A stretch of 64,000 nucleotides of DNA from Bryopsis sp. KO-2023 (Eukaryota > Chlorophyta > Ulvophyceae > Bryopsidales > Bryopsidaceae): positions 8,633,001-8,697,000 of the forward strand of contig BSYQ01000001.1 in the NCBI GenBank assembly GCA_030272585.1, read 5' to 3'. Of the stretch, positions 10,008 through 64,000 are shown piece by piece; positions within the stretch are counted from its first letter, which is position 1; each line of letters opens with the position of its first letter. A program made the translations under genes and the position numbers. The notes under the pieces were generated by a model. It was not told the origin of the DNA and did no database searches. It saw nothing but the letters and a program-made list of their open reading frames with translations.

Positions 10008-11673
10008 TCATTGTTTGTTCACCCAATCACCAACCTGCACACCAATATCTTCCAGCACCCCAGCATCCCTTATGGCAACAAAAGCCTCTGCTGCAGTTCC
10101 AGTCAAAACATCCACTCGTGGAGGAAGCTCACTCACATTGCCCTCAGTTTGCCCCCGAGTATCAGGGGTATGGATTCTTTGTGGTGATCCTGTAGCCGTT
10201 GATTTTGGCTGTATGGTGGATTTCGGTGCATCAGTCTCAGAAATAACATTAGGGCTACCAGTAGCGAAACTCTCACCACCCGGAGTGGGAGCAGGATCAC
10301 TTCCTGCCGCACCTGGTTCAGGGGCATCGATCATCAGCTCTGAGTTGGGGTCATCAGGGCGAGCAGGGGGACTGGGCTCATCAATTTCATCCAGGGACTC
10401 CCTCAAATTCGAAGGTGCACTGGACAATGTGCTTGTGGGCTGCACATTTCCAGTTGCTTCATCATTGAAGCCCCCTTGATCCTCTTCGTTCCTCTGATCG
10501 AAACCAGATTCTACTTGTGGCGTGGGCACACCACTCGGAGGGACTGCTTGGGGAAGATATTCTGTCGAAGAAAACGGTTCTGGCTGTCCAGATTCGCTGA
10601 CCAATTGGACTTGGCTCGAGTCACTAGAACCAGCACCATCATCAGTCCTCCCAATGTTCCCTGCGTCATCGTCTCGAGTTGTGCTTGAGTCCACAGATGA
10701 TGTTTGGAAGCTTGCATCTCCTGTCTGTTGCATCCCTCCATTACCGCCAGCTTGGGGGCTAGGACGCACTGGGACAAGCCACTCCGGAGATGTTTCTGTA
10801 TTTGTTCCAGGCCCAGACTCAGCGCTGCCCCTGGCACTTTCGTCCACAGAAATCGCTATTGTTGGGACCGGACCACTTCCGATAGATCGGGGAATCTCTT
10901 CTGGACTTGAGGCATCATCAGCGACACTGTCTGGCTCGCCGCCAGTTTCCAGCTCCAATGGGGGCAGTGGAGTTCCACTGCTGTCAACAGAGCCTGAAGC
11001 TTCTGTTTCGAGATAGGGGGCAGATGGCAAGCCGCCCGTCGAATTCTGCGCAGGCTGGAAATTTGTGTTTATCCCAGATGGATTTTGTGGAGGTGCTTCT
11101 GGTCTTTTCGTAGTGGAATCACTTGTGCCATTTCCGTCAATAGGGGCTGCAGCCGCCGTTGGTGGGAGAGGAATTTGTCTGAAGCTCCTGTCAGGCATGC
11201 TGACGATGACGGTAGCTTGCTCCCTTGCCACTTCATTGGGCACTCCTTTTGGCAGGAGCACGGCTATCGGGAAAGCTGTGCCTCCAGCCACCTGAACTCC
11301 CTTGACATTGTTCAGAGCAACAACTCTGAATCCACTTGCCGCAGTTGTCGGTGGAGGCGCTGTGACGTTAGCAGTTTGCGGCGATCCTGGAAGGAAGGGC
11401 AGTCTTCCTGGTGATGGTGCGAGAGAAAAAAGAGTGCAAGGCGGCAGTGTTCACAGCTGTGATTTGCCCTGCTTGTCTTACCTTGGAGAAGCTCTCTCGT
11501 TTTGCTGAGTTGTAAGTGCTCTGAGCCAAGAATCAAACAAAAGATGAGGATCAGCATGAAATTCTCAAATGAACGCTTGCCCAAACGAAAAGGAAAGGGT
11601 ACTCGCCTGCCGCCACGAGTTTCTGAGCGGTGCACAAAAGACCGACAAGCAACAACACGACTGACGCCTGCAT
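10008..11673 (-). CDS. Secreted Pro/Ser/Thr-rich protein with RxLxQ motif
   Basis: Exons 11673-11607, 11520-11482 and 11386-10008 join in phase 1 to give about 494 residues. The protein starts MQASVVLLLVGLLCTAQ, a clear signal peptide, then RELLQ at residues 31-35. A compact segment follows (residues ~55-100: GFRVVALNNVKGVQVAGGTA ... EVAREQATVIVSMPD), then ~300 residues rich in Pro, Ser, Thr, Gly, Asp and Glu, with low complexity like a hydroxyproline-rich wall protein or O-glycosylated stalk. It ends AAEAFVAIRDAGVLEDIGVQ...NKQ. The first intron appears to use a GC donor (GCGAGT) at 11606. No enzyme family was recognised. A wall or extracellular-matrix role is inference. Confidence 0.7.
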
Positions 11674-12150
11674 TGGACGAAGGGCGTGGGAGATCGGGAG
11701 GGTTCGAGGTTATGGGTTTTGACGGTGTCGGTTTTGGCTGCCTTGATGGGACAGAGTGAACCCACACCAGTTGGCGGCAAATGAATGTTTCATGAATCCT
11801 CTTTTACAGGACCTTCAAAGCTCTATCGACTTGATTAGCATTTTGATGATCGTTTTTCATGGTCACCATAAACAGAACGTCTTTCCTGGAAAAAGAACAG
11901 GTCCCAAGAAATATCATTTACATCGATTCTGAGAAAAACTCTGTGCTGCCCCACAGTGGTCTGAAATCACCTTTTTCTTTATTCCTTCACAACAACGCAC
12001 TGCGCAATGTTGATTTTATCACTTCAAAAGAAAACCCCCCAAATGTTGTTGTGATCATAATTCTAGTTCGGTGGGCTCATACGATGCCAAAAAATCTGTC
12101 CTGTGCTCAGCATCACAAAGTATTGGTCTGGTTTGGATCACATGACACGA
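11674..12150. other. Intergenic between two secreted-protein genes
   Basis: This is the 5' flank of the Pro/Ser/Thr-rich gene and the 3' flank of Cys-rich protein A. I see no gene here. Confidence 0.6.
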
Positions 12151-14759
12151 CTAGGCGCAGTCGGCCTCCGTCTCAACGGAATGGCATTTGCTAAAAACTT
12201 CTGTGGCTTCGGCCTTGAGCTCGTCTTCTCCCTCAAACAAGATGTCCATCAGCGCAAGAGGACCAGGAATACAGAGCTCTGCCGAAATCACACAAAACAA
12301 ATCAAAACAGTCTGTTGACACACAAAAATCCACAGCTATAAGTCCCACCAGTTGGCGAAGGAAATAACAAATACTCAAAAGATTAGAGGATGTCGGTACA
12401 GGTTTTGGCGATCAAACACGTAGACGTGATAAAGCAAAAAAAATTCGACCATCAGGGGTTTTCAATTTTGTTTGGGCTTCTGCGGCTGCTCGTCTGAAAT
12501 CATACCATCAGCAGCATCCCACGAGCATTGCTTGGTTTCGGGGGTAGCACCACACTCATCCTCTTTGCTCTCCAGACAGCCCGACAAAAACATCTGCTGC
12601 ACCAAGTGGCATGTCGCATCACCTTCATATTGAACTGGCTGTGCTGCCATTGTCTTGAAAAGGTATGCTCCACTGATACCGCACCTACACACAAAATATT
12701 GCACAAAAACCTCTCCGAGACGAACAAAATTCGCATAAACCTTCTATTTCTGGTTTCTTTTTCTCTTCCTTCAGAGACGCATTTCTCTGGCATCTGCACA
12801 AAAACATGTCACTTTTCCTCCACTTGTAAGGCACCAAAAAATTCCATGGAGAGTTCCTCGTAGTCTTACATCTTGCCATCCTCATTCCAAACGCAATCTC
12901 CATCACAGCTGTCCTTGTCGCCCTCGATACACTCGAATTCCTTTCGCATCACGGAAGCAGCAACAGGGTTCGCAACAGCTTCCAAGTACACCTACATGAA
13001 CAAACACACAATTAAAAAAAAAAACAAAAAAAACACACATAATAGTTGCTGAGAGCATCATCTGCCAGCATACTTTGAGGCCTCTTCAAAAGAGTAACAA
13101 ACATCAGCAAATTCTTACTTCTCTTTGGATGGCTTTGCCCTCCTTCTGGAGCTTGTCTGAAATCTCGCATGTGACCTCCGCATCTTCTGGAGCGTCTTTC
13201 ATGATCTGGCATTTCTCATCCTCTTCACAGTCACCACCCATGGCTTGTCTGAGTCCACAGTACAGGTCGGTTTTCACCACATCGTCGCTTTGCTCAGCAA
13301 CATGGCACACAATCTGCAATTCCAGACCATCCATCGTCATTCAACCGACAACACACTTTGTTGTTAGGTATCAATGGCATCCGGACAAGACACGCACTTT
13401 CGAATAATCCTCCACTCCATCAAGATTCGAAAAATATGCACCAAAACCGGACAGGCAAGCATGCACCAAGGTATAAAAAATATATTTTAGCATTTTTAAA
13501 ATGTTTTTTTCCCACCTGATCAACTCCGTCCGGGCAAGTGAACGGTGGTGGCGTCCAATCCAAGACTTGCTCAGCATCTGTAAAGTCCCCCTCCTCCTGA
13601 AGCCCTGTCGCCATTTCCTCCCCACGATAAAGCAGCAACTGATGATGCAACAAATCCACACATCACCTCAAAAACACCACATAACTTGCCATCCATTCTC
13701 ACCAAAAAAAAAAAAAAAACATCAACTATTACGGTAAGTGTCTTTGTTGGTTCATTGCTGTTCCATTTCTCTTTGAAAGCAAGTAAACGACCCTATACAT
13801 ATATATAGAGCCGTTGTGTTTCAGGGCACCTCACCGCAGCAAGGCCTCTGGGAAGACGTTCATGTGATGGAACCCCAGTCAGATACTTCAACAGGTCGAA
13901 CGAGCAAGTCTTGGTCTTTTCCTCCCTAGCAACATCCACACATTTCATCAGCACCTGAAAGCCCCTCTCATTTTTTTCACGACTGAGAGGAGCCCCGAAC
14001 CATGGCCCTCACCAGCCACATTCTTTTGAAATGTTGCACGAGTCTTCTGTCTTGAGGGATCCACGGCACTCAGCAATCTTTTCGGTCGTCTCCAGGAAAA
14101 CAGACGCAACGCCAACACACTTCCTGAAGCTGTCCATTTCCGTGACATCCACAGCATAGTCACACAAATTTTGGAGGCCGTCCCTACAAACAGGTTTTCC
14201 AAACACACACATTTTTAAACCTCTACAACACTCCCATCCACAGGAGGAATGGTTGCTCGATCACTCTTGGAGCCCACTCACCATCTGCATTTGCTGTCTT
14301 CCCCACACGTGTCCTTGTTCTTGAAGTGGCATTTCTGCATTGAACATCGGCAGGCATTCAATCCTACTGTTTGGATTTTTGTTCAGGCTAGGTTTCAATG
14401 AGCTTTCCCAGTGTTTTGCCGCCACGTACCACCATGTCGACGATCAGATCCTTCAATTTAGTCTCCGGCGCCTTCTCCAGGAATCCGAGCGCAAGCAGAG
14501 GATTGACAGCGCACTGCGCCCTATCCTCGTCCCAGGCGCATTGCGGATTGCTCGTCTTGGAGCTTGTCTCTTCCTCCTGTCCTTCGGCGGCCGATCCCTG
14601 AAGCAGAGCCCTTCTGCGAGAGTGTGGCACCGGCAGGATATCCAGAACGCCCTTCACGGCTGATTCGACCGCAGCCCCGTGGGGATCTTCCCAACGATGG
14701 GCATGACAGTCAGCGAGCAACACCGCCGCAAGGATGAAGAAAAGGGTGGTGCGTGCCAT
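12151..14759 (-). CDS. Secreted Cys-rich modular protein A (C-x-W modules)
   Basis: Nine exons: 14759-14430, 14334-14282, 14183-14013, 13925-13835, 13638-13516, 13313-13119, 12991-12870, 12684-12506, 12278-12151; all phases close, giving 463 residues. It starts MARTTLFFILAAVLLADCHA (signal peptide), with RALLQ at residues 50-54. The mature part repeats a module D-x-C...C-x-W-x(4-8)-C: QCAWDEDRAQC, KCRW..LC, ECGWEEKTKTC, CVWNEDGKMC, QCSWDAADELC. Two introns split the module Trp codon as TG|G. The C-terminus is ELCIPGPLAL...ETEADCA. It is the paralogue of protein B at 59.0-61.8 kb, with the same exon order and phases, and B has one intron fewer. The family is not known to me. The Cys density suggests a disulphide-bonded extracellular protein. 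Confidence 0.82.
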
Positions 14760-16128
14760 TGATGCGTGGCGACGGAGAAAGCAGGTAGCCCTTAGCGCTT
14801 AGATACACGCGCCCGCGATCCGTCAACAACACCAGGTCGGCTGTGATCCCTGATGGGGTGTAAAAACGAAAACCACAGGGATTCACTTGCTCCTCACTCG
14901 AGCAACCTTGCTTTGATGCCCAATTCCTTTTCTTCGACCTCACAATCCGGGGAGGGTTAGGATCTGTGAGCGCTTGCCCCTTTGGGGGTTGGTTCTTTCA
15001 AGTGGTGCAGTCCCATCACGAAGGATCACGATGGGATCGTTGGAACGCGACACCTCCCAATCGAACACAAGGGACTGCGGCCAATTATTGATGATTGACT
15101 TGGGCAAGCTGTGGGTTTCCAAGAGAACAGAAACTACCATTCCCAAAACCCATTTCATTTCGGATCGGTAACGATTGTGTCATATTCTCTTTCACTTAAC
15201 AATCACAACTGCCAACGCCATGGGGTCTTTCGTTCTGATAACACAGGGAAGGTGTAGAACCCCATCACATGGCAAGCAAGAAAGCAAGAATCAACACTTT
15301 TTCTCAGGAGAAAGGTGGTTTCTTTCAAATAGAATTTGAAAAAACGTGCACAAAAATCAATCATAATCAATTGTTCAATAGATCAGCAATCATGTGACAA
15401 AGCAACCCCAAGTTTTCACCCCTCACTTCTTCTCAAATGCGACATTCATCCTTCTCAACTTCCGTCTCCGTTCCTTCAATTTCCCTAAATATATATAAAA
15501 ATATTCTTTCACTGACCTCCCTATTTGTACCTTCCTTGTCGCAGCATCGCATGAAAAACCCCAAGAGTCCGAAAAATAAAAGAAAAATAAAAATCTGATC
15601 GGGGCACCGTAACAAGACAACTCAGCACCGCAGAAAAAAGAAATGTCCAATCAACCAATCAATCATAATTCTCCCTCGGAGATCAACAAAAATACCCCAC
15701 AATCCAACCGAAGATCATAACAAAATCAATCAAAGAAAAGATATTGACGTGGGGTCCCTTCGTCAGCATCGATTTCAAGAAAATCAACAATAGGACATAT
15801 AGAAAAACACACACACACACAACCTCATCTTCCAATTCAGTGAATAAAGTTCTCGCCCCTCCAAACCCTCCTCTGCAACAACCGTCCCTGCCATCGTCAT
15901 ATGTTTCGCGTTCGCGCTCAGCCAGAGGCCATGTCAAATCAAATGAGTAACTGTTTTTCTAGTGTTTTCATGTGTTGTTTTTTTTGGTTGCCTTGGAAGG
16001 GGAGGAGGGGGAACTGTACATAAGACTCCACAGACCAAACAGTGAACAGTGGTATGCGTTTTTTAGACGGAAACTGCACACATATTAGGATTTTCGTTTT
16101 TTTTTTTTTTTTTTTTTTCCCCTCTCTC
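14760..16128. other. Intergenic, no gene seen
   Basis: About 1.4 kb between the start of Cys-rich protein A and the end of the starch synthase. Short open frames on both strands show no family motif or convincing splice pattern. A T22 tract lies at about 16097-16118. The right part is presumably the starch synthase 3' UTR. Confidence 0.55.
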
Positions 16129-19100
16129 CTAACAATAAGGCTTATCCATCTTGGCCCACTCGAACACTTGTTCGTATTGCTGGGCGGCACCATCCCACGA
16201 GCTCTCCCTCTTCATTCCCCGTTTCTGATTCAAACCCAACACCAAACAAATGAAAACATTGCAACACCACAATGTTGTTCGGCATCATTCTCGTGTATTG
16301 GTGTCATGCGACTGTTGTACAATAAACAACATATATACATATAGATAGATAGCTATTGCATTCATTCGATACTTTTTTGCTTATTTAAAACACCAATTCA
16401 CCAGTTTCAAGATTTCATTTACCCTTTTTGTCCTTGGTTGCCCATCGTCGGCAATAAAGGTTCACCCACCCACACATACACGCCCTTTCAAGATTTTCAC
16501 AAAAAATTACGCATTTTCCCTACCTGCAAATCTTGGAAGGACTCCCGATGGCCCCTGTATGTCTGGAGCGCATTGCCCACGCTCTGAATCAAACCGCTGC
16601 TGTCGCAAGGGAAAAACGTCCACCCCGTGCCAGCATCGTCCCAGGGGTTGAAATTCTGAACGGTGTCCTTGAGCCCACCAGTGTAGTGAGCAATAGGGAC
16701 CGTTCCGTATCGCATAGCGTAGAGTTGATTCAAACCGCAGGGCTCGAATCTGGAGGGCATCAGGAGAATGTCGGCTGCCGCTGTGATTCTGTGACTGAGG
16801 GGGACGTTGAATCCCACCCACCCACAGGCGTTGTTGAAGCTATCCAACCACCGAAGTCCATTCTGCATCATGGAAAAGGAAAACGACAAGCGAATTGCTA
16901 AGTTGGTGTGCTGTTGACCAGAATCCTCAAGGGAAGAAATGGTGATAGAAGTTGCCCGGTTGGCGTTGTGGCTTGATGAATCAAAATTGGGCAGAAAGCA
17001 AATGGAGATGATGCAATGAGTGGTTCGGAAGGTTCAGCAAGGGGTGCAGTGGCTTTCCCACTGATATCAATATTTCCAAAATAGGTAAACCACACAAAAG
17101 CAGAGATGAATTCAGATTTCGACCATTTCGATTTGGTATTAAGTCTGAGAGGTATCCCCCCCCCCCAAACCTCCCCCCCTCCAAAAAAAAAAAGAAACAA
17201 AATATATATTATATATAATAGGGCGACTCTTGGTTGTTTGATTTACTTTCCTATCCAAGCATGTACAAGCACCTCATAGAGAGCTCACCTCCAAATTCGG
17301 ATCCCCAGTTCCAAGGCAGACCAGATGTACGTCTTGTTGAAGAATCCAGGGGGCTGCTTGCAACATGATATCGGCACCCTTCTGGAAATCCAATCGTCCG
17401 ATGAATGCAACCATAGGGATGTTTTCGTTTTGTGGCAAACCCAGCTCCTTCTGCAAAGCGACCTTGTTGGCTGCCTTGCCCTTAACGAAGTCGTCGGTAC
17501 CGTAGTTCTTGACAATATGCTTGTCTTTGATGGGATTCCACACGCTGCACACACACAGAGAATGCAAACAGTCACAGTTTTCAGCTCCGCGATTCTCTTC
17601 ACTTCGATGCTCGGATCGAAGAAGTGTCAAGCCATTTTTTTCACGCATTGCACAGAAATGTGTAAATGAATGAGCTTTTTCATGCAAACATAGGTAGAAG
17701 AATCATAACACCACAAACCGGGGTGGTGCTATTGTCAGCAACCTTTTAACACTAAGGACTGACCTCCCACCCCCCACCCCCTTCTTATCGTCATGTCTTA
17801 TTTTGACTGATGAATGTGAGGCAGAATTTTGCACAGTGACGGTGTGAGCTTATTCTGATTCTGTGCAACAAATCAATCTTCTATTTTCAACTTGCGCCTG
17901 ACCCACCCACCCACCCACCCCTTTCTCCCAGCATGAAAAGGATGCTGAAAACAACTGTATACAGAAACAACTCATTCAAATCAATTAACAGAAACTCACT
18001 CCATGTCAATCCCATTGACGATGCCATTGAGCACGAAAGCTCGTGAGCTGATAATATACTCCATCCCACAGCCGCCCATGGGGCTTTGAATTTCCCCAGC
18101 ATAACCAGGACTCACAGTCAGAATTCGATCAGCCGTGGAAAGCCCAGCCTGTGGAATCGTACACAATACAAGCATGAGTCTAATATCCTGACGACACCAA
18201 AAGGGCTGGTAGATTTACCCATCACCACATGTCGCATCAATATGAATTCTCCAAAATCATTTCTAGCCCCTGCTCATTCTTGCTAGCCAATGGTCAAAAA
18301 AAAATAAAAAAAATAATTGGTTTGCACATGATGCTTTCATATCCATGCAGATTCGCACCTTCAGAGTGTTGACACTTCTTCCTTCCTCCTCGTAGCTCCC
18401 TTGCCTCTCTTCAGGGGGGTATTGCCACTCCAATGCACCGTACCACTCCCCTGGGAGGTGCAGGGTACCGAAGGATGAGGGAGGGAAAACTCCCTGAAGA
18501 AAAAAATCACCAAAAAGGGCCATCCATCATAATTATTCTCTTTCCTTTGTTTTTCGGTGGGGTGGCAAAAAGGGCCATGAATCACAATCATTCTCTTTCC
18601 TTTGTTTTTGTGGCGGGGTGGGGACAGGGGGGAAGGAAGACGAGTATTTGAGTAATAAATTGATGCAGGCAGAGTGACAAAGAGGGACCAGGTTTTTATA
18701 CCAAACCTGATGCTTGATGTTGTGGATGGCCACCACGCTCCGGGCATCCTTGTACACGCCAGCCGGCCTGTATTTTGCAGCCAAATATACTGGGACGAGG
18801 GCAGCATGCCAATCATTTGCTAAGAACACAACATCTTCTCCATATACTGATCCATTGAGCTCCAACTGCAACGGAGCCTCGAGGGCAGCCAAGCACAGTA
18901 GCCAAAACCGGAACTGCCGACAAGAGCAAATGTATTTCAAATCCCATGACACAAGAAAAACAACGAAAGCCTTTCGGCCGAATAACTGGGAATCTTGCTG
19001 GATTTTTGATCAAATTTTTCAAATTTTTGATCAGTTTTTTGGGTTTCCTGAAAGTGATGGTGAATTTCATGATGAGGAAAGGAACAGGGATCCCCCCCAA

Positions 19101-20362
19101 AAAAGTGAAGGTGGGGTTAAAAAGTATTCCAGAAATAGATGCCAAATCATCCAACGTTTTCCGCACACATGAAGAAACCACCAAGAGGTACCTGATTATC
19201 TCCATACACTCCGTATTCATCGCTGTAAATTCCACCTGGACGGGGGAAAGAGGGGTGGTCGAGGAACACCCAGTCGACACCCTCTCTTTGCAGCAGGTGA
19301 TACCCAACCTCGTTGTCAAAAATATCAACAGTCGTCTGCAACACACCTCCTCATGATATCAATTCCGCTTCGCCAAAATTTTTACAAAATTTTGAGACAT
19401 ATCACTGGAACGGGCCGGAGCCCCATCGGCACATCTTTTTCTTCGAACAACTTTTTCCTCGAACACGAGAAGGTTGAGATCTATTCGCCAAAGCAAAAAA
19501 AGTTTACTACCCTTGAATAGATCTAATAAATTATTATAATTGTTCCTTAATGCCACTTTCTGGAGGTGTTTGCGTCGTTACGATTTCTTAATTCGGACCT
19601 ACCCCCGAGAATGTGACACCTTCGTAGTCTTCATATTTTGGAATCACGACCATTACACGATGACCTCTGGCAGCCAGCGCTTGTGGAAGAGATCCACAGA
19701 CATCACCTAAACCTCCAGTTTTCGACCATGGTGCCGCCTGATTCATTGATTTTCAAGACAACTTCATCAACACATGTGGTGCATGCTCTGAAAATCCATG
19801 GAAAACGGAAGCTTGCTGGGTTTTCTTGCTAGGAGTACATGAAAAAAGGATGGATTTGAGAAAAAAATCATCTCGAAGGGCCATGCAGACGTGGACAATG
19901 CTTTGGCAAAATTGATATGTAAGGTGTTCCTCAGAATCAAACTTTGAAAGACAGATTCAGCAACCAAAACGCGAATCTCCACGAAAAAGCATCAGAAAAA
20001 GTTTGGGTTTCTCGCAAGGCCGACTGACCACAGTCCGCAACAGAATTTTTTCCACGACGCACTTCTGAGCTGACGAACACTATGTTCCGTGTTTTCTTCT
20101 CTGTGTCTGTCACGTGCACCGCCAGGTCGTCGTCCGCCACCTCTCGCACCGACGTCGCGGCTTGCACTTGCACTTCTTCTCGACTTGGCGAGCTGACTTC
20201 ACCGGACTCCCTATCTCCCGCTACAGCTTGAAGCTTGTGTCTGAGGGAAGACGCGCGGTGGGAGCAATTTGTCGACGTACGGGGATGCAGGCGAGACGAG
20301 CTGGGGTGGCGAACCCCGGCGGCGCGACCGCCGCCATCTATACTAACTCCGACAGGCAGCAT
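16129..20362 (-). CDS. Starch synthase (GT5), soluble SSI/SSII-like, plastid-targeted
   Basis: Nine exons: 20362-20063, 19737-19603, 19335-19192, 18913-18707, 18493-18359, 18148-18000, 17544-17289, 16862-16524, 16224-16129; the phases close to 586 residues. The first ~80 residues are Ser/Arg-rich and fit a transit peptide. Then come [20 protein letters not shown] (ADP-glucose-binding KTGGL), [82 protein letters not shown] (catalytic Glu) and a second glycine motif, YTGGL. The C-terminal [11 protein letters not shown] resembles SSI. It adds glucose from ADP-glucose to alpha-1,4-glucan. The real start is ATG 20362; an upstream TTG is in frame. The exact SS class needs a tree. Confidence 0.93.
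18511..18621. repeat. Tandem duplication of ~55 bp in starch synthase intron 4
   Basis: Copy 1 (18511-18565) and copy 2 (18566-18621) both begin CAAAAAGGGCCAT, both contain TTCTCTTTCCTTTGTTTTT and both end GGGGTGG, with a handful of differences. They lie wholly inside the intron between the exons ending at 18707 and starting at 18493, so there is no coding effect. Confidence 0.85.
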
Positions 20363-35548: not shown

Positions 35549-35796
35549 AACTGCATTTGGGACACTGAAGATGGTGCGATGTCTGCCTGGAGGTCCATTG
35601 TCTTTGGTGGCTTTGCTGTGAATTTGTTGTCAGACATTTCACAGAGCAAGCACTGACCCTAAACAATCTTTGCCAACTTCTGACAGATTCGTTGGGACCA
35701 TTCTCTTCTTCATTCTGATTTATGTTGGTGCCCGTTTTCATTAATCAGAGGCATGCTTGGAGATACGCAAGGCCATGAAGGTCTGATGCTCAAGGC
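35549..35796 (+). pseudogene. Truncated copy of Cys-rich protein B 3' end
   Basis: The segment aligns with 61458-61776: the end of exon 7 (GGCCAAACTGCATTTGGGAC), the following intron (CCTGGAGGTCC...GCTGTGAAT) and the start of exon 8 (TTTGCATTAATCAGAGGCATGCTT-like). Similarity is roughly 80% by eye, with deletions in the intron part. The reading frame and splice sites are not preserved, and I see no other exons around it. Because the intron is present, it arose by DNA duplication and not by reverse transcription. Confidence 0.85.
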
Positions 35797-36227
35797 TGTG
35801 TTGTCCCAGTGTTGATTTTTTGGATCTGCATGATGACCGATATTTGCAGCAATTATCCTTTGTTGGGGGAATATCCCGTTCACACGCATCAGGTTTCACA
35901 ATGGGGTGGTTATTGTTCAATAATCAAGTTCAACAAGCAAATTTTCATTTCCCAAAATAAAAACCTGCTAAAAATGTTCCAATCACAGACTTCTTCCCCC
36001 CCCAAAGTCACACTGCCTGCAACAACATCAACACCACCACCAAAACTCACCTAATAAAAAGCGCAAATACTAAGGACTTTTCGACGAAAGAAATGACGGC
36101 AGGAGCGGTGTTTTTTTGTTTGTTTTCTTTTCTGGTGTTTTTCAATTATGCTAATGCACACTCCTCGACAGCACTGAAAGCTGTCATCATCCCTAGTCAT
36201 CCTACCCAGTTTATGAAATTAATGCAG

Positions 36228-38025
36228 TCAGTCCATAATTTCATCGAGATCGAGATCGGGCTCGGCCTCGGGGGCTTCAGCTTCGGGAGTGGGAAGGGTG
36301 GCAGGAGCGGGATCGGGAGAATCTTGTGCTTTCACCTATATCGCATTTCAAGATAAAATTAACCACATGGGCTTACATATTAGCCACAGAAATCATATTC
36401 TATCGACAGAAAAATTAAACACAAGAAATATGTTGTTACGATTTTGTGTGGAGACAGTGGACGTTAAAAAGAAAAACGTTTTTTTGGGGGGTTTCCTTGA
36501 TCTCAGCATCGTCTTCACGCACCAAGGGCTCTTCTGCAACCTCTTTTTCTGCATAGTCATCCTCTTTATTTTTTTCAGCTTCGTCTTTCTTCGTCTCGGC
36601 CGGAGGCACGGGCACCGTTTCAGATACGGGCTCTCCCAACGCAGTGGGCTCGGCCTCCGCCAGATTGTCCAACAGAAACTCTGACGGAGTTTGGCCAGCC
36701 GGTGCCTCATCACCTGACCCCAAAATCCACCCATCCCTTAAAACATCGAAGATTCCATCCAACATGTCAAACCACATACACGCACCCTATTGCCTGAAGC
36801 ACTGGCATTGGAGCAGAAAAAACCTCTCCGAACAAAAACTGGCCACACTCACCGATCTTCACAAGACCGCACTCAAAGAACACTTTGTCGCCCTTTTCGG
36901 GGGGGACCAGATAAGTTTTTCCGAAAAGGAAATTCGGCCTGATCTCGCGGAACTCATCCAGAATAAAGTCATAGGCGGTGTCTTTGCCATACAACGCGAT
37001 CCACGAATCCTTGTCATCAGAATAGCCCTTCTCCAAGGTCAGCGTCCCCTTCAGATCCTTCTTTTCAAAACCACTCTCGTCTCGCAGAATGTTGGCAAGG
37101 TTGCCTTTCCCGTCGAAAGTCTGCAGCATTCATGCAAATGGTTTTTTACTGGGGGCTCACTGGGGAAACCTCCAAACAGCAAGCCACATTTTGAAATTTT
37201 GATCGAGGTCTTGGAAGTTTTGAAAGCGAAACATGTTCGTAATGGAAAATCCCACGGTTTTGGTGAGGTCTGTTATCAGAATTGCGCTCCTCCAACCTTT
37301 CCAAGCCAGCGATCAAAGATGAAAGTCATGATGGCTTTTTTTGTTATGGAGATATCGAAATCCTCGAAGTTGGGACGATCAGAAAGCATAAATCCTGCAG
37401 AAACGCACCATTCCAACCAGAATCAACCCCACCACTCAAATCCAAAGGGAAACACTCCACCAAAGATAATGTGTCAAAGCACCAGACCTTGCCTTCCTTG
37501 TTTTCTCGTGTTCTATGAAAAAAAAGGTAGAATTGGGTTAAACGAAACCCCCAGTCTTTGGCCTTACCCGTGTACAGGCCACTTGGCATTGGACCAGCGT
37601 CCGAAGCAATAAAAACCTCATCCCTCTCGCCTTGCGTCAAAGTTAGCAGCCATTCACGGAACTCCTCCATATCCGCCAGCTCAGGAACCTCGATCCCCTC
37701 GCCTACATAAATCCCCACATCCCATTCAGTCGCCGATCATTCTACCATTCGCGCGCGGGATCAACTCCAACACAAACGCCTTCGTTCCATGCCATATCGT
37801 TTCGCGTTATTCTTTCACGAATCGAAATCCCCCGCTGGGAGGCCTTCACGCGGAGGTTTCACGAGTATCGTCAGGATCACCTTCTTTCTCGAGTTTTGGC
37901 ATGGTGGCGGAATCATCCTTCGCCGCCGTTTTCGCAACAGGCTCCTCCGCCGCGACGGGGGCCTCCTGCGCTCCGACGAGAGTGCATATCGCCACCAAAC
38001 AAAACAATGCCATGCAGCGCTTCAT
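36228..38025 (-). CDS. Secreted acidic protein, unknown family
   Basis: Exons 38025-37881, 37702-37568, 37394-37297, 37120-36853, 36713-~36480 and 36335-36228 are phase-consistent; the end of the fifth exon is uncertain, with its donor near 36481 or 36466. It starts MKRCMALFCLVAICTLVGA, a signal peptide, then an Ala/Glu/Lys-rich linker. A folded-looking domain follows: EFREWLLTLTQGERDEVFIA, NFEDFDISITKKAIMTFIFDRWLGKTF, GTLTLEKGYSDDKDSWIALYG, FGKTYLVPPEKGDKVFFECG. The last ~100 residues are strongly acidic and Pro-rich (...PEAEPDLDLDEIMD). No RxLxQ motif lies near the start, unlike the other secreted proteins here. I recognise no family. Confidence 0.7.
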
Positions 38026-53067: not shown

Positions 53068-56000
53068 GCCTGCATCTCCAAACCGCCCCAGCGATATCGA
53101 AGATGAACTTTTTCGAGGGTCAGATGTCATGGAAATTCCAACCATCATGGCAGCGACTATAAATTTTGTGGATGGGGAGAGGACTGTGGGTGCTGCCTAT
53201 GTAGATCTGTCCACTCGGCGAATGGGGGCCTGTCAATTTCATGACGATATGGACTTTTGCTGTTTGGAAACATTGATCGTGCAACTTGGCCCGAGGGAGT
53301 GCGTTTTGCCGAAGGCAAGGTTTTGCTGATGGGGGAAAACTACCAAGAAACAGTATTCAGATGATCGCTCCAGATGCTGTTGCATCAATTACCATTCTGA
53401 ATACGTACATACAGATAACAAAAGACTTGTAGATTGATAAATATAACTGTGGGAAATTGATGCTGGTCGTTATCAGCACTTCAAGAACCATTGATTCGAT
53501 TCTTGAAATTTCTGAGTCTTGCATGAAAAGGACAATTGCTGTGCAAATCGTGCTTCCAATCCTTCCCGATTCTTTCACACTTTTTTTTTCTTTCGAGTAC
53601 TTGGGCTTGTTGCTTGTACTAAAAAGGAACCTTTTTTTTGGTCTGACATACAGGAAAGCGAGTCAAGTTTACAATTCAAGGAGCTTCCAAAAGTAAACGA
53701 GGTTTTGTCAAGATGTGGAGCTGTGGCTACAGACAGGCCAACAAATATTTTTTCGACAAAAAATCTGGAGGGCGATCTCAAGTGGCTTATCAAGGTGGGG
53801 TATTTTTTGCACTCCTCATTTTGCAATTGCTGGAGCGATGTCGAATGGTATAGCTTATTAGTTTTTTCTTTTGATCTTTTAATTTAGTCTGCTTGATTTT
53901 GGGAAAAGTGGGGGGTTGGCAGAGGGGGTGCCTCCATAAATCCGTAACGAAAAAGAGTTGATTGGAAGGGTCAAAAAAAGGAATGCACTGTCGAATGGTC
54001 TTTTCTGGTTGTTTCAGAGTGGAAGTGTGGAGCACCACAGAGATATACTGGAAAGACCACTTGCTTCACAGGCACTTGCAGGTAGGGCTGAACAAAAATC
54101 CAATTCTTCCCCCATTTTATTCAAAAAAGTTGCAACTCGGCCTTGAGAGAGATTCTTCTGGTGAATTTCCCTGTGGCTTTCGAAAAGAAATGCACACAGA
54201 AGCGATTAATAAATTTTCATTTTTTTTATTTTTCGTAGCAGCACCACACTGCAACTCATTCGCGTTAATGTACATCTGTCTGCTCAAATTGCTTTCCTGT
54301 CTGTATTATTCGCAGCTGTCATTGCTTTTTCGGAGCTGGCTGCTAGCACCTATCGAGGCAGGCTTGAGCTGTCATTGCATGACATCGGCAGCTCCATGCG
54401 ATTGGACTCCGCTGCCCAAAGAGCGCTGAACTTGTTTCCGCAAAAAAATGACGACAACAAAGTGCTGTCAGTCTATGGATTGCTGAATCGAGCCAGGACG
54501 GCGATGGGGAAGAGAAAACTCAAGGTGTGGACTGAGGAATGATTCTCTGTGAGTTGATGACAAATAAAATGACCTGATACACAGAGAAACTTCAAGAAAT
54601 GTGATTTTTAGTTTGTGTCGATTTTATTTTTATAAATCAACCTGTACTGTTGATGAGTTTGTAAATCAGCGGGCTAAAAAGAACAAATAGCTTTTTTGCA
54701 GCCATACATTACAGGAGCCAATAGAAGCAATGTGAGCCATGTTAGATGTAGTTTGAACAGTTTATCGTTGGGTTATCAACAATGATGCACTTCTTTTCTC
54801 CTATTTTTTTTTCTTCTTTTTTTTGTCATAGGTGTGGATGAAGCAGCCCTTGGTGAAGGAAGATGATGTTAAGATGCGCCTGGATATTGTTGAAACATTT
54901 GTTGAAAACACCGAACTGAGGGAACAAATCAGGGATTGTTTGCGAGGTATGGGTTTCCCCCCGTCCATATTACATGAAAGGCAATTTTATTTTTGTTTTG
55001 TTTATATTTTTTTGTTTTATTTGCCCAGCTTAGCCTTGCATTTTCAAGCTGTCCAATAGCTGCTGTGTGAATATTGTTTTTCGTCAGCCGATCATCTTTC
55101 CCCCTTTTTTTTTCCTTGAGGTTGTTCCAAGTGACATATTAGAAAAAAAAAAAACTAACTAAAAATCCCCTTGTTTGTGCAGGATATCCGGATGTGGAGC
55201 GGCTGACCAGGAAACTCAGTCGGAAAAAATGCTCTCTGGCTGACTTGTGCCAGCTCTACAGGGCTTCATCGAAGCTTCCACTGTTGGAACACCATATCAA
55301 GCATGCTGGCGTGGAGCTGCTGAATTCAAAGTGCGTGTTACCCTCTTTCTTCCTGGAACCAACCAGCCGATGGATTCAGTCTGACAGGAAATCTTATGCA
55401 AACTGATGAAAGAATGGCTTATGTCGCTGGTGAATTCCAGGTATGCATCGCAGCTCGCAGACGTTCATGATTTGGAGCATTTGGGGAAGTTTGAGCAACT
55501 GGTGGAGGCTGCTGTCGATTTGGACAAGGTTCCCGATGAATACCTCATTTCACCAGATTACAGCAAAGATCTGGAGGTAAATTTTTATTTCTCTCAAGCA
55601 ATTTTCGGTGAGAGATTTTCTGTCTCAACGATTTTTACCAAATGTTGGGGAAGTTCCGGGCAAAAATCGATTGTGCATTCTGAAATCCTGAAGGCATAAT
55701 AACTTACGTTTTGGGGGGAGAGGGGGGTGGGGGTCTATGTACACGTCATAAATGACAGTAGATTGTTAATTTCGGGGCAGTTGTTTCCTCCCTTCTGGCT
55801 ATGATCTGTTACATGCATTGAAGTTGGTGATTTCCAGTAATGTATTCTCTTTCTTGCAGGGATTGTCTGTCAAAAAAAGGGAGATCGAGGCAAGCATCGA
55901 CGACCTTTTCCATGAAGCTGCAGCTGACCTTGGCCTTATCGTCGGCAAAACCATCAAACTCGAGTGGCATAGATTCAACAACAACACCGTTCGATGCCTA

Positions 56001-58338
56001 AGAATCACACAGAAAGAAGAGCGAAGTCTGCGGCAAAAATTGCAACAAAGGTTAGGTCATTCGTGTCATGAAGATTTCCATGTGGGCACCTGATGTTGTG
56101 TGAAATCCGGGGGTGTGCCTAGCTTGTTTGATGAAAAAATGTTTTGTGTTTTTTTGTATCAAGTCTTTCTGAATTCTGTTGCTGTGACAGGTACTTGACT
56201 CTTGAAACGAAGAAAGATGGCACGAAATTCGTTTCTCACAAGATGCAGAGGGCAGCCACGGAACTCCAGTCAATTTCCCACAAATATCAGAGCATGCAAA
56301 CAGAGCTTGTTTCGATGGTAACAACGAGAAGACAAAAAAACAAATCCATTGATTTGAATTTCCAGGGGGGGGGGGGGGGGAAGCTCTTGGAGGGGGAAAT
56401 CATTTAACATAAGGAGGGGATGTGGAAAAGAGTCACAGATCGGTGAGAATGTAACGGGGTTTTGTAAATTCCTGCAGGTCATCGACATTGCCCACACATT
56501 CGTAAGAGTTTTTGAGGAAGCAGCCGTCATCATTTCAGAATTGGACGTCTTGGCTGGATTGGCTGACATTGCCATCAGTGCACCCGTTCCTTATGTCAGA
56601 CCGCAAATATTGGCACCGGAGTCTGGTGAACTCATGTTGAGGGGCTGCAGACACCCTCTGGTGGAAGCCCAAGACGGTGTGGATTTCATCAAGAACGATT
56701 GTGAAATGGTCCGAGGAGAGAGCTGGTTTCAAGTCATCACTGGCCCCAACATGGGTGGAAAATCGACCTTCATTCGACAGGTGAAACCCGAAACTTGTTC
56801 AAGCGCTTCCCTCAGCCCATTTCTGTTTTCTCATTGTGCATTTCGAACCCATCTGTGAATTTATGTCAATAGGGAGTGATTTCAACAAACCTTTCACGGT
56901 TTGCAAGTGAAATTGCTGTTAGTCGAGGAGGTTTGTTTGGATATGGTTGGATGGCAACAGAGATTGATTGTTTTTATTCTGCCCCTTGAATTCTGCAGGT
57001 AGGGATTTCTGTTCTTCTAGCACAGATCGGTTCATTTGTGCCGTGCGATGAAGCTAGAATCGCATTGAGGGATGCTATTTTTGCCCGAGTCGGAGCTGGA
57101 GATTGTCAATTGAGAGGCGTGTCCACATTCATGGCAGAAATGCTCGAAACGGCAGCAATCCTGAAGGTATGATATCAACCCGTGCGGCTTATTTTGGTTT
57201 CATCAAGACCATCAGGTTTTGAGAGCTAGCAAATTGAGTAGTTTTGATTAATTTATTTTTCTGTGTTTTCAGGGTGCAACGGAGCGCTCCCTTGTCATTG
57301 TCGATGAACTTGGGAGGGGGACATCGACTTACGATGGGTTTGGCCTTGCATGGGCAATATCGCACCACATCATGCAGGTACAGCCATCATTGCAAACAGC
57401 ATGTCGGCTTCTAACACATCAACCGTTTTGGATAACACGGGGGTGGGGGAGTGATGGGAGTGCGTATTGATGTGTTCTTTTTGCCGTCTTCAGAAAATCG
57501 GTTGCCCCACGTTATTTGCAACTCATTTCCATGAGCTGACAGCATTGACAGGTCCTGGTGGGGTGAAGAATTTGCATGCCGAAACATGCATCGACAGCGA
57601 CACGGGCCGGCTTACCATGCTTTACAAGGTACCCAAACACACGCATCGATATCACGTGTTCATTTGCATTTTCTGGATAGGATCAGAAGAATGTGTTTGT
57701 ACTCAGTTTCTTTTTCTCGTTCTTTGGCTGATAAGGCCGTGTTGCCTTGTTGTTTTTGTTGGATTTTTGGAAAAAGGTGAGTGAGGGCGCATGCGATCAG
57801 TCGTTCGGTATCCATGTGGCTGAATGTGCCATGTTTCCTGAGAGCGTGGTTGCGGTTGCTAAAGAAAGGCTCAGGGAGTTCGATGAACGAGAAAAACAGG
57901 TGGCCAACAGTTCATGTTTTAACAAACCGATCATTTGGTGTCTTTTGAGTGATGTCTCGGCACATGATTGCGCTTGCTTACACTTTTACCGAAATGAGGT
58001 TTGAATAAGATCACAGTCAGGTCCAAGTCGCTCGGTTGCACTCATTGCATGTCGCTTGGGAAGATATTGATGGGCAGCACACAGACCTTATCGCTTTTTG
58101 TTTTAATTCGCGTGTTTCGATTCTGTTCCAGTTGACGCAGTATGTGTGGGAAAAATCCGACAAAGAGAAGGCAGCACACAGAATCATGGATGAATTCATG
58201 AACGAGGTGGCCTCCATTGAAACAGAAAACACGCCAAGGGATGACTTAGCCGACCGTGTGAAATCTATCTTGGCTAAAATGGATGCGGCATCGGAAAAGA
58301 ACGAGGCACTGAAAGAATTGCTTAGTAGCAGAGCCTAG
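53068..58338 (+). CDS. MSH2: DNA mismatch repair protein MSH2 (5' end unresolved)
   Basis: Fifteen exons: 53068-53314, 53654-53794, 54018-54081, 54316-54524, 54832-54946, 55183-55330, 55441-55576, 55860-56050, 56191-56317, 56478-56780, 56999-57166, 57273-57377, 57494-57628, 57778-57900, 58132-58338; all phases close, giving ~805 residues. The first visible exon begins in phase 2 at [14 protein letters not shown], aligning near residue ~120 of human MSH2. Walker [15 protein letters not shown]. Walker B and signature: [13 protein letters not shown] and [21 protein letters not shown]. Then THFHELTAL and [14 protein letters not shown]2 pairs with MSH6 or MSH3 to bind mismatches and uses ATP. The first intron has a GC donor. 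Domain I was not found upstream. Confidence 0.93.
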
Positions 58339-59009
58339 GTTGACTTTTTCTGCAGGTTTCAATAGGTAGTGTTAAATTAAAAAGGAATTTCGCTTGGATG
58401 TACCCGCTTCACAAAAAAGTAAATCAAGTGCTGAAGGCACAAGGTCTCCTTTTGTCAGAATGCATCTAGGAAAATGCTGAGTAAAACCACCTAGTATTTG
58501 TCAAAACTCTTCATCAGTAAGAAGTGTCTTGTTTTTTGGGGTTTTTTTTTTTTTGTACACAAAACAACTGCTTTTTCCTGTCACCAACATCATGTTCTGG
58601 CAATTCTGTGCATCAAGCTTTAAATCATTTAATTCGATGAACGAATTGGGTGTGAAAAGTAAACAAACAAACAAACAAACAAACAAACAAACAAACAAAA
58701 TTACATGCGAAGATACCTCCCGGCATCTATGTGAAATGTAAAGCTTGCCATGGTCTTCTCTTCGACGGGACGAACCATGCAAGCACCCTATTCCTCACAC
58801 ACAGACAATGGCATATTTTGATTTTTGCAACAAGAAAGGCCCCCAGTCCATGTGCAAACAAATACGAGAGGGGGGCATCAACTGACCTCAGGAGCAGCGC
58901 CGTCACATCTTTCACGTCGGACCCACAACACATCCCAAAAGCACCGTCTTGTGGTGGAGTTTCTCGTCCAGAACGAGACGGGTTGCGATTTCGCAGCGGG
59001 AGTTCGACG
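58339..59009. other. Intergenic with (AAAC)n microsatellite at 58661-58700
   Basis: MSH2 3' flank and 5' flank of Cys-rich protein B. A pure AAAC repeat of about ten units lies at 58661-58700. The plus frame upstream of 59010 is open, but the signal peptide fixes the start. Confidence 0.7.
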
Positions 59010-61813
59010 ATGATGCTGCCGATCAAGGTTTTCTTTATTTCTTGTGCATGCGTTGCACTGGCGGCGCCGACTCGAACGAAACCTCTTTTGCGTGGCGGGG
59101 AAGGCCTCGGATTGTCGATCGGCAATGGCGGTAGGAAGCTTTCGCAAAAACCCTCTGATCTGCCTGAGACGAAGTGCTTCTGGGACGAGGTCAAGGGAGC
59201 CTGCCTTATCAGCCAAGAAACTACTACTGGAATTCTCGACCAGATCGCGGATTCCGACATGAAGACAATGGCGTCGAACGTCGCGGTGTGTCCCAACTCT
59301 TGAACTGCTTTGTCGTTGATCGACATTACGCCGCCTTTTGGGGGCAAACTATGGGCTGGTTGGTTTTGCATGCTTCACAATATATTTTTTGTGTTCAACC
59401 CCAATTGATCAGATGGCCCTTTGGATTATCGGTGTTGTCTCTGTTGTGTTAGGAATGCAATTACACCCCAACCGCCGATGAGTGTGCGGAAAAAGAGATG
59501 TGCGATTGGTAAGGAATTCTTGGAAAGTTGAGGGACTACTTTTTAGGGTTGCTGTCTGATTAACCTGGAAGCGAGACAAGGAAGGGGGGATTGGGGGTAA
59601 AAATTCTCTGTGATTTTGTCCTGGATAATTTTTCTGTGGATTGCTGACTGCGTATATGGTTGGGTTGGTCTGGACAGGGGGAACTCTACCCTTGTGTGTG
59701 AGTACAAGTTCGACCACACGGATGAGGAAAACTTCAACAACTGCATTGGAGAAAACGTCGTTTTTATCGAAATGTCCCCAGCATTCAAAATCTGCAAAAC
59801 TGAAACACCCAACAGGGATGGATGCAATCTTTCACCAACATGCACATGGTGAGTGAATCTCTGGAAAAAAAAACAAAAACACACCATCATCTCAAAAAGC
59901 AATTATCAGTGGAATTCATGGTGGAATGGTGGTGAATTTTGGATCAGGTGGTTGGTCAGGTAGTCAGGGAATGCACAAGAATTGAGTCTTGAGGTTTTTT
60001 GTACTGGTGCGTAGGGATGAGACTCTTGCCACCTGTGAATTCGATGTGTGGAAGTTTATGACTGGAGTCCCAGCACAAAGTTTGACGGAGCCATTTCCAA
60101 AGGGCGTCCAAGAGGTACGATCTGCACACAGCATATTTTGACTTCTCACGTTTTTCTCCCCTTCATTTTTTTTTGTAGGAGGGGTGCGGGGGTGGGGAAA
60201 CCTGTTTTATGTTTTTGTAATTCCTTGCTGAAGTGTTAATTTTCTGAACAACGAAGATGAGTTCCATTCTTTTTTGGGGGGAGTGTAACCGTGCTTTTGA
60301 TGGGGTTCACAGTTGGTGGAATCCCGAGCAGAAGAAATCTCTTCTCAATTGAAGGCTGAAGCCCTGACTGACGGCGATGAAATATTGGCATTTCAACCGA
60401 CACCATTCGTCTGTCCCGTTGGAGTCGACATGGTAACAGTAGTGCACATTTTAAAAATTTGAAGGAAAAAAAAACAATTGAGGATTTCGTTTCTGCGATG
60501 TCATTCCATTTTCATGAAAATGTACCGCGCTCCAGCAAATCTCTGCAAATGATGTACCAGCAGTGGTGAGAATTTGTGTGCGTGTGTGTGTGTTGTGCTT
60601 TTTTTCTTGTTCAGGTACTCTGCACCATAGCAGAGATTGCAGATCACTTGACGATAATGCAGGAATATTGTGACTCGAAGAGGTCGGGCGATGGCACGTG
60701 CGACTCCGACGAATTCGTGTTTTGTTCTCCACAATGCCTGCCTTCTGAGGAGACTTTGAAAGCTGTGCGAGAAGAGCAGACTTCTGTAAGTTTGCTTTGC
60801 AAGGACGGCAGCATGTTCTGTGCTGAATTAATTTCCACCCCCACCATAGTGAGACATGGTGCACTTCTTTATATGTGGGCTGATATGTTGGCAACAAATA
60901 TTATTATGTTTGATATCATTATTACTATTGAATGGGCCACCTACATGAAGACGTGCACTGATATGTGCCGATTTATGTTTTCAGTGTGTTGAATAATAAT
61001 TGAGGTGGGTGCCAGATCAGCATAAAATCCAACACAAAAACGTGATTGTCGACGACTCTCTATCAATGTCTTTGTTGTGAGCACAGGCGTAGGGGGGGCG
61101 CTTGGGGGGCCCCCGAGTTTATCATCCTGGCTATGCCTATGGTTGTGAGGTTGCTTCTTAAGCTCTGTTCGTCATGTGTGCATCTTTCAGGCATTCTTGG
61201 CGCTGATCAAAGACCCGACATCGAAGAAAATCCTGGAGCAGCAGAGCAAGTGCTTGTTGCAGGGTGAAATAGATTGCAACAAAGACGAATCCTGCTTTTT
61301 CGACACCGATCAGGAAGTCTGCGACGTGAAACCCTCCCTGGTGCTGAGGCATCTGTCGAAGCACCCCGTCAACAGGCAGAATCCACATTGCGAGATCGTC
61401 CAGCCTGTTTTCAACTCGGGGTGCATGGAACACAAAGAATCCAAGTGTGCGGAGCGACCAAACTGCATTTGGGACATTGAAGACGGTACGATGTTTTCCT
61501 GGAGGTCCCCTTCATTGTTTTGCTGTGAATGTGTTATCGAACATTTCGAAAAGCAAGCATTGATCCCATACAATCTTCAGCATTTTTTGGTGGCTTTTTT
61601 ACAGATTTGATGGGGTCTAAATTCTCCTTTTCATCTTGATTTTCGATTTATGTTGGGTTGGGTTTTTTTCTTGTAGAGTTGTGCATACCAGGCCCGTTTG
61701 CATTAATCAGAGGCATGCTTGAAGATATGCCAGGCCATGAAGATCTGAAGCTCAAGGCTGCTGAGGCTGATGAGTATTGCTACGAAATCAAGAATAAAGG
61801 GGACTGTGTTTAA
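59010..61813 (+). CDS. Secreted Cys-rich modular protein B (paralogue of protein A)
   Basis: Eight exons: 59010-59285, 59453-59508, 59678-59848, 60015-60114, 60313-60432, 60615-60785, 61191-61485, 61677-61813; the phases close to 441 residues. It starts MMLPIKVFFISCACVALAA (signal peptide), with RKLSQ at residues 42-46. C-x-W modules: KCFWDEVKGAC, MCDWGNSTLVC, TCTWDETLATC, SCFFDTDQEVC (Trp replaced by Phe) and NCIWDIEDELC. Shared blocks with protein A include FDxxKxxTGVP, PFxCPxGVD and ELCIPGPxAL. Introns 2 and 3 split the Trp codon as TG|G, as in A. Exon 7 here equals exons 7+8 of A. Its function is unknown; probably a disulphide-rich extracellular protein. Confidence 0.85.
61084..61142. mobile_element. 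Short MITE-like insert in intron 6 of protein B
   Basis: About 59 bp: it begins CAGGCGTAGGGGGGG and ends CCTGGCTATGCCTATGG, imperfect inverted ends around a G/C-run core. The end matches that of the element at 35014-35252. It lies in the intron between 60785 and 61191. Confidence 0.4.
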
Positions 61814-62958
61814 ATGGACATGGACACCCAACGTGCTGGACTTAGTTTTGAAGAGGGACAATCAAACACTCACAATTTCTGGACGGAACGCGTTTCTCAA
61901 GAGGGGACAGGGATTGATGGGCAGGAAATGTATTTAGGTCACGTGTTACATTTATTTGGATGTGTTTTCCGGCTGCCAATTCATCAATCTTGATCAGTCA
62001 GAAGACAAAATCCCTCCACCAAGAACAAGGGTTAGAATGGCCCAATGCATTTCCTATTCCCCATGTGCAACCACATTCTTTTCAATTTAGTTGATGGCCA
62101 TGAGTGAATCTGATCTAATTATCATTTCCGTCCCACACGATTCAACTCAGGCTTTTTTGGGGTGCCTAGCAAGACAATTGAAAATGACCCAAATGGAAAG
62201 CTGCTCAATTCATGTCCTTGTTCCATACCTACAGCAATAGGCCGAACTGTGGTAAAGGTCATGAAGCTGCTATTTGGAAAGGATATCGGTGGTGCAATCC
62301 AACCGATTTATCTACTAGTCATTCCATCAAGTTAATGGGTAACAACTGTCGGTATTTTTATTGGTATTGCATTCTGGATGTTAAAGACTGCCCTACCAAC
62401 ACAATCTCAGACTGCAGCATTCATAATGTGATCCAGGGTGAACTCAGGGGAAAATCCATCCGGTCACATTAATGTATACGTATCTCCAATATTATGATTC
62501 TGGTTTCTAAGTTCGAATTCATAAGCTGGTGTCTTTTCCTGTTTTAATGCACAACCCAAGGCATAACACTGAGAAAGTGACAAATGTGTTTTTGACGAGA
62601 GAATCATTTCTGCAGTTCAGTAGCTAAAGACTGCAGGAGTTGAGATATACATATACATGTGTGTGTGTGTGGGATGTCGTTGTACGTTTCTTACCAGTAC
62701 AAAAAAGAACGTATAGCTCTGAAGCTTTTTCAATCACGGAAAACAAAAATGCCTTGTACATTTACAAACAGTTCACCAGTGGCGGTTGAAAGTTATGCAC
62801 GTCGGACAGGAAAAGTTGCAACTGGCTTGCTGCGCACAGCATAAAAACCGGCTCTTCGCCGAGGATCGCAAAGCAACGACTGGTGTGTTCTCTCTGTGCT
62901 CTGTGCGTGCGTTTTTTCTACTCTCAACCGACTTCTTTGTCTCGACTCTTTCCTCAAC
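61814..62958. other. Intergenic, no gene seen
   Basis: About 1.1 kb between two plus-strand secreted-protein genes. An 86-codon frame at 62212-62472 shows no motif. The part just before 62959 is the downstream gene's 5' flank. Confidence 0.55.
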
Positions 62959-64000
62959 ATGATGATGAAAGCTGCAATCGTGTTGGCCTTCCTTGCACTC
63001 GTGGCGCCGCCACAAGCTTTGGCAGGTTTGCAGCACACGCGAGCGCAGGCTCTCGTTTTCCTGCTCCGGTTGGGATGCGCCACCTTAGATGTGTATGCTT
63101 TTATTCAGGTCGGCGCCTCTATCAGACCTCGACCACTTCTTGCCAAGTGTTCGGTTCGGTGAGCCTCGTGGTGAAGTCGGGGTCGTGCAAGGGCTGGGCC
63201 GGGGCAAGTTGCAATGTAAGATCTCTTGTCCTCGCTGTCGGCATCGTCTCTTGTGAGCTTTTCATGCTGTTCCCAACTTGTTCAGAAAACGTCTCGTGTG
63301 TGGTGGATCGGCAGTCTCTCGCTTTCGCGGAATCAACACTGGAGAGCGAAGTCAAGGAGATCTTGACAAATGATCTGTGTAGCCCCGTGTCGGCGCAAGC
63401 TGCAGCAACGGCCGCCGCGACTGCCGTGGCGTCTGTTTATTTCGAGGCGCTGGCAAAGGTCGGTGCAGCCTGGCTGAAGTTGACTGTCAGTTTTTTGTGT
63501 ATCCCTTTTCGTGCACTGACCCCCTGCTTTGCTCGTGCAGGTCTCCTGTGATGGTCAGGGCTTTGGATGCGGTTTCAGCGTAGCCCGTGGAGATTCCTTT
63601 GCAACCGCCTATGCAGAAGTATTTGCTCGAGCCGTAGCAGTCGCAGCCAGCGGCGAATCCGGCGCAGTGTGTATGGGAGACCTGACCGCGATAGCGGTGG
63701 GATTCGCGAAAGCCGCCGCGGAAGGCAGCACCAGGGCGTGCGTCGAAGGCAGCGGAACAGCAGAGGCTTTTCGCTCCGAGTTTGTGCTCTCGGCAACAAC
63801 AGCCATAGCTGACGCCTTGGCGATTGCCACTTCAGAAGTCTGCACAGGTTCGGCCGTTTCTTGTTCATCTCGTTTCTTGTGTGGCCATGGACGACAAGCA
63901 ACGTGCGAATGTGTTGAGAGCAGGTGAATTGGGTACCAGCTCCGAATGCGGAGTCGATGTGGAGGGAAGCTCCACCGCCACCAACATCAACCTTAATGAG
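62959..64000 (+). CDS. Secreted Ala-rich Cys-containing protein, 3' end outside window
   Basis: Exon 1 is 62959-63025 (MMMKAAIVLAFLALVAPPQALA, signal peptide). Exon 2 starts at 63109 and encodes GRRLYQ (RxLxQ at residues 24-28), then SCQVFGSVSLVVKSGSCKGW. The frame stays open to the next donor at about 63460; a phase-0 intron 63216 to ~63312 is possible but not required. Later exons run 63541-63846 and from 63925 on, past the edge. The protein has Ala-rich helical repeats broken by Cys (AAATAAATAVASVYFEALAK; AYAEVFARAVAVAASGESGA; STRACVEGSGTAEAFRSEF). Ala-rich secreted proteins of this style occur in green algae. No function is known. Confidence 0.72.

Follow-up and report, generated by a model that had tools for sequence, protein, structure and literature searches.

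An RxLxQ motif in secreted Bryopsis proteins that looks more like a plant site-1-protease site than a malaria-type export code

Secreted proteins with RxLxQ in the window

The DNA analyzed here (the window) is a stretch of 64,000 nucleotides from the green alga Bryopsis sp. KO-2023 (assembly GCA_030272585.1, contig BSYQ01000001.1, positions 8,633,001 to 8,697,000 of the forward strand), and searches beyond it covered the genome of 91.1 Mb on 28 contigs. Four of the five secreted proteins read from the window, encoded by genes A to D, carry the motif R-x-L-x-Q (RxLxQ, where x is any residue) after the signal peptide. This had been claimed in the original prediction, and reading of the window DNA confirmed all four motifs at the positions given there. 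The four motifs are real, and they form a conserved and probably cleaved element of a subset of secreted proteins. We infer from sequence which enzyme would act, which bond it would cut and what the Gln would do.

Gene A (10008..11673, minus strand) encodes a secreted protein of 501 residues as a spliced open reading frame with exon 1 at 11673-11607, mini-exon 2 at 11520-11482 and exon 3 at 11407-10008. Its motif, RELLQ (11497-11483, minus; residues 31-35), lies inside the 39-nucleotide mini-exon, and the model needs a GC-AG intron (window 11606-11521) ahead of that exon. An alternative, unspliced start at 11557 likewise places a hydrophobic N-terminus ahead of the motif. Gene B (12157..14759, minus; the low end is approximate, being the last stretch matched by protein C) is a multi-exon gene with a signal peptide, and its exon 1 carries RALLQ (14612-14598, minus; residues 50-54) in the context SRRRALLQGS. 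Gene C (59010..61814, plus strand), which encodes about 401 residues in several exons, carries RKLSQ (59133-59147, plus; residues 42-46). Gene D (62959..64000, plus, running off the window) encodes an Ala-rich secreted protein of a large family, with exon 1 at 62959-63025 and exon 2 from 63109, and carries RRLYQ (63111-63125, plus; residues 24-28) in the context GRRLYQTS. The junction of its exons 2 and 3 is uncertain, and a donor after 63207 leaves the frame open. The fifth gene, E (37849..38025, minus, given from the start codon to the first in-frame stop, although the exon may end elsewhere), encodes a signal-peptide protein with the predicted mature start Gln (A↓QEAPV, the arrow marking the cut) and has no RxLxQ in its visible reading.

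A signal peptide precedes the motif in each of A, B, C and D, as scored with a von Heijne matrix rather than with SignalP. Each sequence contains a single RxLxQ in the part read, i.e., the full length of A, exon 1 of B and of C, and the first 58 residues of D. The motif starts 15 residues past the predicted signal-peptide cut in A and 1-2 residues past it in D, and in the gene models of both it is reached only across an intron. Neither A, B exon 1, C nor D has a match in Pfam, and a search of the PDB gave none for B exon 1.

Conservation and recurrence of the motif

Genes B and C are paralogues, with 27-43% identity across several exons and repeated Cys-x-Trp segments. The original prediction had allowed kinship for the A/B pair at most; it is instead B and C that are related, and a genome search with the first 154 residues of A found no paralogue. 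The window therefore holds three independent occurrences of RxLxQ and not four. Outside genes B and C, window 35732-35800 encodes 23 residues that match protein C (residues 363-385) at 70%.

A family search with protein C returned gene B and members on contigs C8, C13, C9 and C6, and a search with the C13 member added a seventh Cys-x-Trp locus at C5:87025. The N-terminal region was read in six of the seven loci, where the motifs ahead of the first Cys are RALLQ (B), RKLSQ (C), RRLLQ (C13), RALLQ (C9), RTLLQ (C6) and RHLLI (C8). RxLxQ is thus present in 5/6 members and RxL[L/S] in 6/6, a count that B and C entered owing to their motif; among the four members outside the window, which were not picked for it, RxLxQ occurs in three and RxLL in all. 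Since the members have common ancestry, this agreement represents conservation and not independent origin. The junction of exons 1 and 2 is uncertain in the C9 member. In the C6 member, a signal-peptide-like stretch (2078-2220, minus strand of C6:2352001-2355200) is in frame without an in-frame ATG, so that either the start is not settled or the gene is damaged, and only the exon with the motif was used.

The stretch between the signal peptide and the first Cys is mostly unalignable across the family, and the motif sits at its end. Up to the motif this stretch varies in both length and letters, except in the close pair C8/C13 and for a RALK common to C8, C13 and C9. This position at the end of a fast-changing pro-segment gives the motif the appearance of a processing site. 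The RALK forms a second R-x-L-x site earlier in the pro-segment, in the first exons of C13, C8 and C9 (TRALKS, ARALKS and TRALKA, respectively), and as a sequence it would fit site-1 protease (S1P) as well.

The family of gene D is much larger: when 150 of 265 candidates had been scored, the genome gave at least 186 matching stretches. The alignments of several diverged relatives begin at residue 21 or 22, a span that would cover the motif. In the last exon, identity among many copies is 90-98%, and some copies are found in inverted pairs about 2-7 kb apart, e.g., C5:3064029 (minus) with 3065946 (plus) and C8:2792358 (minus) with 2799133 (plus). The family may have been amplified recently, perhaps with a mobile element; D relatives were also searched for in viral contigs, and none was confirmed there.

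The chance of RxLxQ in a 50-residue stretch is about 0.014 per protein, given the composition of 8,059 coding-like residues, which yields P values of 2e-7 for four of five proteins and 1e-5 for three of four families. These values are post hoc because the motif was picked after it had been seen, and enumeration of patterns and shuffling of sequences are fairer tests. When all three-residue patterns with gaps of 0-3 were enumerated, only RxLL and RxLxQ were found in at least five of the six family linkers, and none of 2,000 trials with shuffled linkers gave any pattern common to five of six. RxLxQ is the only one of the two that is also present in both of the unrelated proteins A and D. The same family pattern appeared in both A and D at a frequency of 0.00105 in 20,000 shuffles, or 0.00015 when only exons 1-2 of D were used. 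Our sequence comparisons thus suggest that RxLxQ is unlikely to be due to chance, and that it is conserved in one family as a processing site would be.

A candidate S1P-type cleavage site

In plants, S1P (SBT6.1) and SBT3.5 have RxLx/RxxL as their published site, with the examples RRIL↓A in RALF23, RRLR↓S and ERRRA↓L↓GG in CLEL6 (SBT6.1), and TGRRLM↓GS in PROSCOOP12 (SBT3.5) (PMC13082318). The last of these is close to GRRLYQTS of gene D. All eight processed pectin methylesterases of tobacco (Nicotiana benthamiana) contain such sites, i.e., RRLL four times, RKLL twice, RVLL and RTLL (PMC11494411). In the alga, RxL[L/S/Y] occurs in 8/8 instances (A, B, C, D, C13, C9, C6 and C8), of which A to D were chosen for the motif and the other four were not. 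The residue before the Gln is Leu in five of the seven RxLxQ instances, and RxLL, the form in the tobacco enzymes, is found in 6/8 when RHLL of C8 is counted.

The genome also encodes an S1P-like gene (C6:2806019-2807155, minus strand). One exon stretch of 91 residues matches human S1P (8uw8) with an E value of 1.1e-39 over 90 residues, while the next PDB subtilase reaches 1e-5, and the exons carry the Asp, His, Asn and Ser segments (DTG, GHGSFVAG, IGNDGP and GTSVASP). The assignment as an S1P orthologue comes from the match to the human protein and not from a tree. One catalytic exon of the C6 gene (DTGVRKDHP...GHGSFVAG) occurs again, in nearly identical form, at C2:6383334-6383546 (minus; L036), possibly as a partial duplicate.

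The motif therefore looks more like a plant or animal S1P site than a malaria-type export code. With about even confidence, we propose that a subset of the secreted proteins of this alga have their pro-peptide cleaved at RxLxQ by an S1P/SBT6.1-type enzyme, giving a mature start at Gln. Signal peptidase would act first, followed in the Golgi by an S1P/SBT6.1-type or similar subtilase. In plants, SBT6.1 processes CLEL precursors in an early Golgi compartment when the signal peptide is already off (PMC7162652). The algal subtilase would cut R-x-L-x↓Q, with Arg at P4 and Leu at P2, and would thereby remove a short, fast-evolving pro-segment, so that the mature protein would begin with Gln. The algal sites resemble the plant S1P/SBT6.1 and SBT3.5 sites in the pro-regions of RALF23, CLEL6, CLEL9, PROSCOOP12 and pectin methylesterases in the spacing of Arg (four residues) and Leu (two residues) from the presumed cut, in the variable pro-segment past the signal peptide and in the S1P-like gene encoded in the same genome. 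They differ in that Gln follows the site in 7/8 instances and that the window proteins have no Pfam match, and cleavage in the alga is predicted only.

A glutaminyl cyclase could then convert the exposed Gln to pyroglutamate. The family PF05096, which we take to be the plant-type glutaminyl cyclase, has four exon matches at one place in the genome (C14:1502608-1504009). With this gene and the S1P-like gene both present, the N-terminus could become blocked after a cut before Gln.

Counter-evidence and competing explanations

Several observations weigh against cleavage by an S1P-type enzyme at a Gln. The C8 member of the Cys-x-Trp family reads RHLLI and has no Gln, and when the four members outside the window are taken alone, 16 patterns occur in at least three of them, RxLxQ being one, with RxLL the sole pattern in 4/4. 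The S1P-like gene is known as exon pieces and not as an assembled whole, and the N-terminus of the cyclase gene is absent from the stretches seen. One tobacco pectin methylesterase with RALL, the form in B and C9, is unprocessed (PMC11494411). Moreover, ERRRALGG of CLEL6, the published site closest to SRRRALLQ of B, is cut after RRRA and RRRAL (PMC13082318), and by this analogy the cut in B might lie one or two residues upstream of the proposed bond.

The same holds for the wider secretome, which we sampled in 15 spaced 10-kb stretches, four short stretches and the search loci (320 kb in total, overlaps included). From 173 candidates ranked by codon scoring, 75 of them listed, nine motif-free signal-peptide genes outside the family were chosen by eye, some of them poorly codon-scored (E, L024, L017, L046, L053, L033, L038, L048 and L011), while L023, L021, L015 and the reading at L048 minus 6140 were excluded as doubtful or duplicate. 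RxLxQ is absent from all nine within 60 residues in the visible reading from the start. These readings run for 29-194 codons to the first stop and most second exons are not settled; the count would therefore overlook a motif encoded by a later exon. RxLxQ does occur in some frame within 1,300 bases past ten starts (the nine and L023) at E, L017, L038 and L023. At L017, exon 2 encodes it as RALLQ, some 100 residues downstream and inside a subtilase prodomain, and at L038 it adjoins the catalytic domain; a likely second exon of L046 contains RKLSS. In an unspliced six-frame set, RxLxQ was found in 8 of 246 candidates, compared to 2-5 for five permutations of the motif and 7 each for RxLxG and RxxLQ. 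Four of the eight come from the window (B, C, the unspliced start of A and a stray frame within A) and two are one stretch counted twice; with duplicates also among the 246, the set was judged too noisy to use, and it speaks mildly against a strong general signal. The motif is thus not shown to be a general code of this secretome, and its absence from all nine genes suggests that it marks a subset of secreted proteins. Among the titles listed in our literature searches, which leave out most subscription journals, none dealt with RRLLQ, RxLLQ or RxLxQ in secreted proteins of green algae. As a separate observation, nuclear rbcS (two loci read) encodes a transit-peptide-like N-terminus without a preceding signal peptide, which agrees with a primary-plastid green alga.

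These counts give some room to inheritance plus coincidence, i.e., a conserved and perhaps structural element of the Cys-x-Trp family that A and D match by chance, as noticed afterwards. Outside the family, A and D are the only two of 11 hand-picked signal-peptide genes with RxLxQ, for which P is about 0.01 at 0.014 each, a value that is low yet not negligible after a search for any motif. This does not sit well with the recurrence of a family-fixed pattern in both A and D (P 0.001 by shuffling), nor with the position of the motif near the predicted signal-peptide cut in both proteins and its single occurrence in each sequence read. We regard inheritance plus coincidence as rather unlikely, while giving it real weight.

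A more far-reaching proposal is a two-step maturation code, in which many unrelated secreted proteins, including the D family, would be cut by an S1P-type enzyme at R-x-L-x↓Q and then converted to pyroglutamate, leaving a uniform blocked N-terminus on part of the extracellular proteome. Eukaryotic secreted proteins with an N-terminal pyroglutamate made by glutaminyl cyclase offer a parallel, as the Gln would become the mature N-terminus and a PF05096 gene is present. They differ from the algal proteins, in which a second protease, rather than signal peptidase, would expose the predicted Gln start. The predicted signal-peptidase cut itself exposes Gln in three of the nine motif-free genes, E (38025), L046 (7180) and L038 (2555), all on the minus strand. 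This may point to a preference for Gln at the N-terminus, but the matrix is itself biased towards Gln at this position. Such a code is a tentative idea that we think is probably not correct.

It is improbable that RxLxQ instead stays uncleaved and acts in the secretory pathway as a signal for sorting or receptor binding, as its letters match a known protease site, and we know of no RxLxQ receptor. The distance from the motif to the Cys-rich domain varies, as it would for a linear docking motif. Mutation of the SBT6.1 sites also lowers the secretion of CLEL6 precursors (PMC7162652), and such sites can thus affect traffic.

A PEXEL-like site, where an aspartyl protease of the endoplasmic reticulum would cut after RxL, leave an xQ start and sort the protein as plasmepsin V does in Plasmodium, is very improbable: in the eight instances the fifth residue is Gln seven times and Ile once, with neither Glu nor Asp present, the fourth residue is Leu in 6/8, which suits an S1P-type RxLL better than a free x, no host for export is apparent, and RxLx in plants already has a known protease. 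The genome does contain pepsin-family genes (PF00026, four exon matches at two places). The likeness to PEXEL drawn in the original prediction holds for form, as RxLx[E/Q/D] lies past the signal peptide in 7/8 instances, always with Gln, which matches the letters of PEXEL/HT and their similar, short distance from the signal peptide (PMC9478907). As a guide to mechanism it does not hold, since PEXEL is defined by plasmepsin V cutting after RxL (PMC9478907), while RxLx is the published consensus of plant S1P and SBT3.5 and an S1P-like gene is present. The likeness is one of form only, and S1P is the simpler account in the green lineage.

Collectively, the best reading of RxLxQ is that of S1P-type processing of a pro-region in a green-algal version, with Gln preferred after the cut, which cautions against seeing a PEXEL site in RxLxQ outside apicomplexans. 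If this reading is true, a constraint on the residue after the cut would account for the retention of Gln, and the motif would provide a simple predictor of mature N-termini for algal secreted proteins. Pro-regions of peptide hormones and pectin methylesterases are processed in this S1P-type manner in land plants, and such processing would then extend to the extracellular proteins of green algae.

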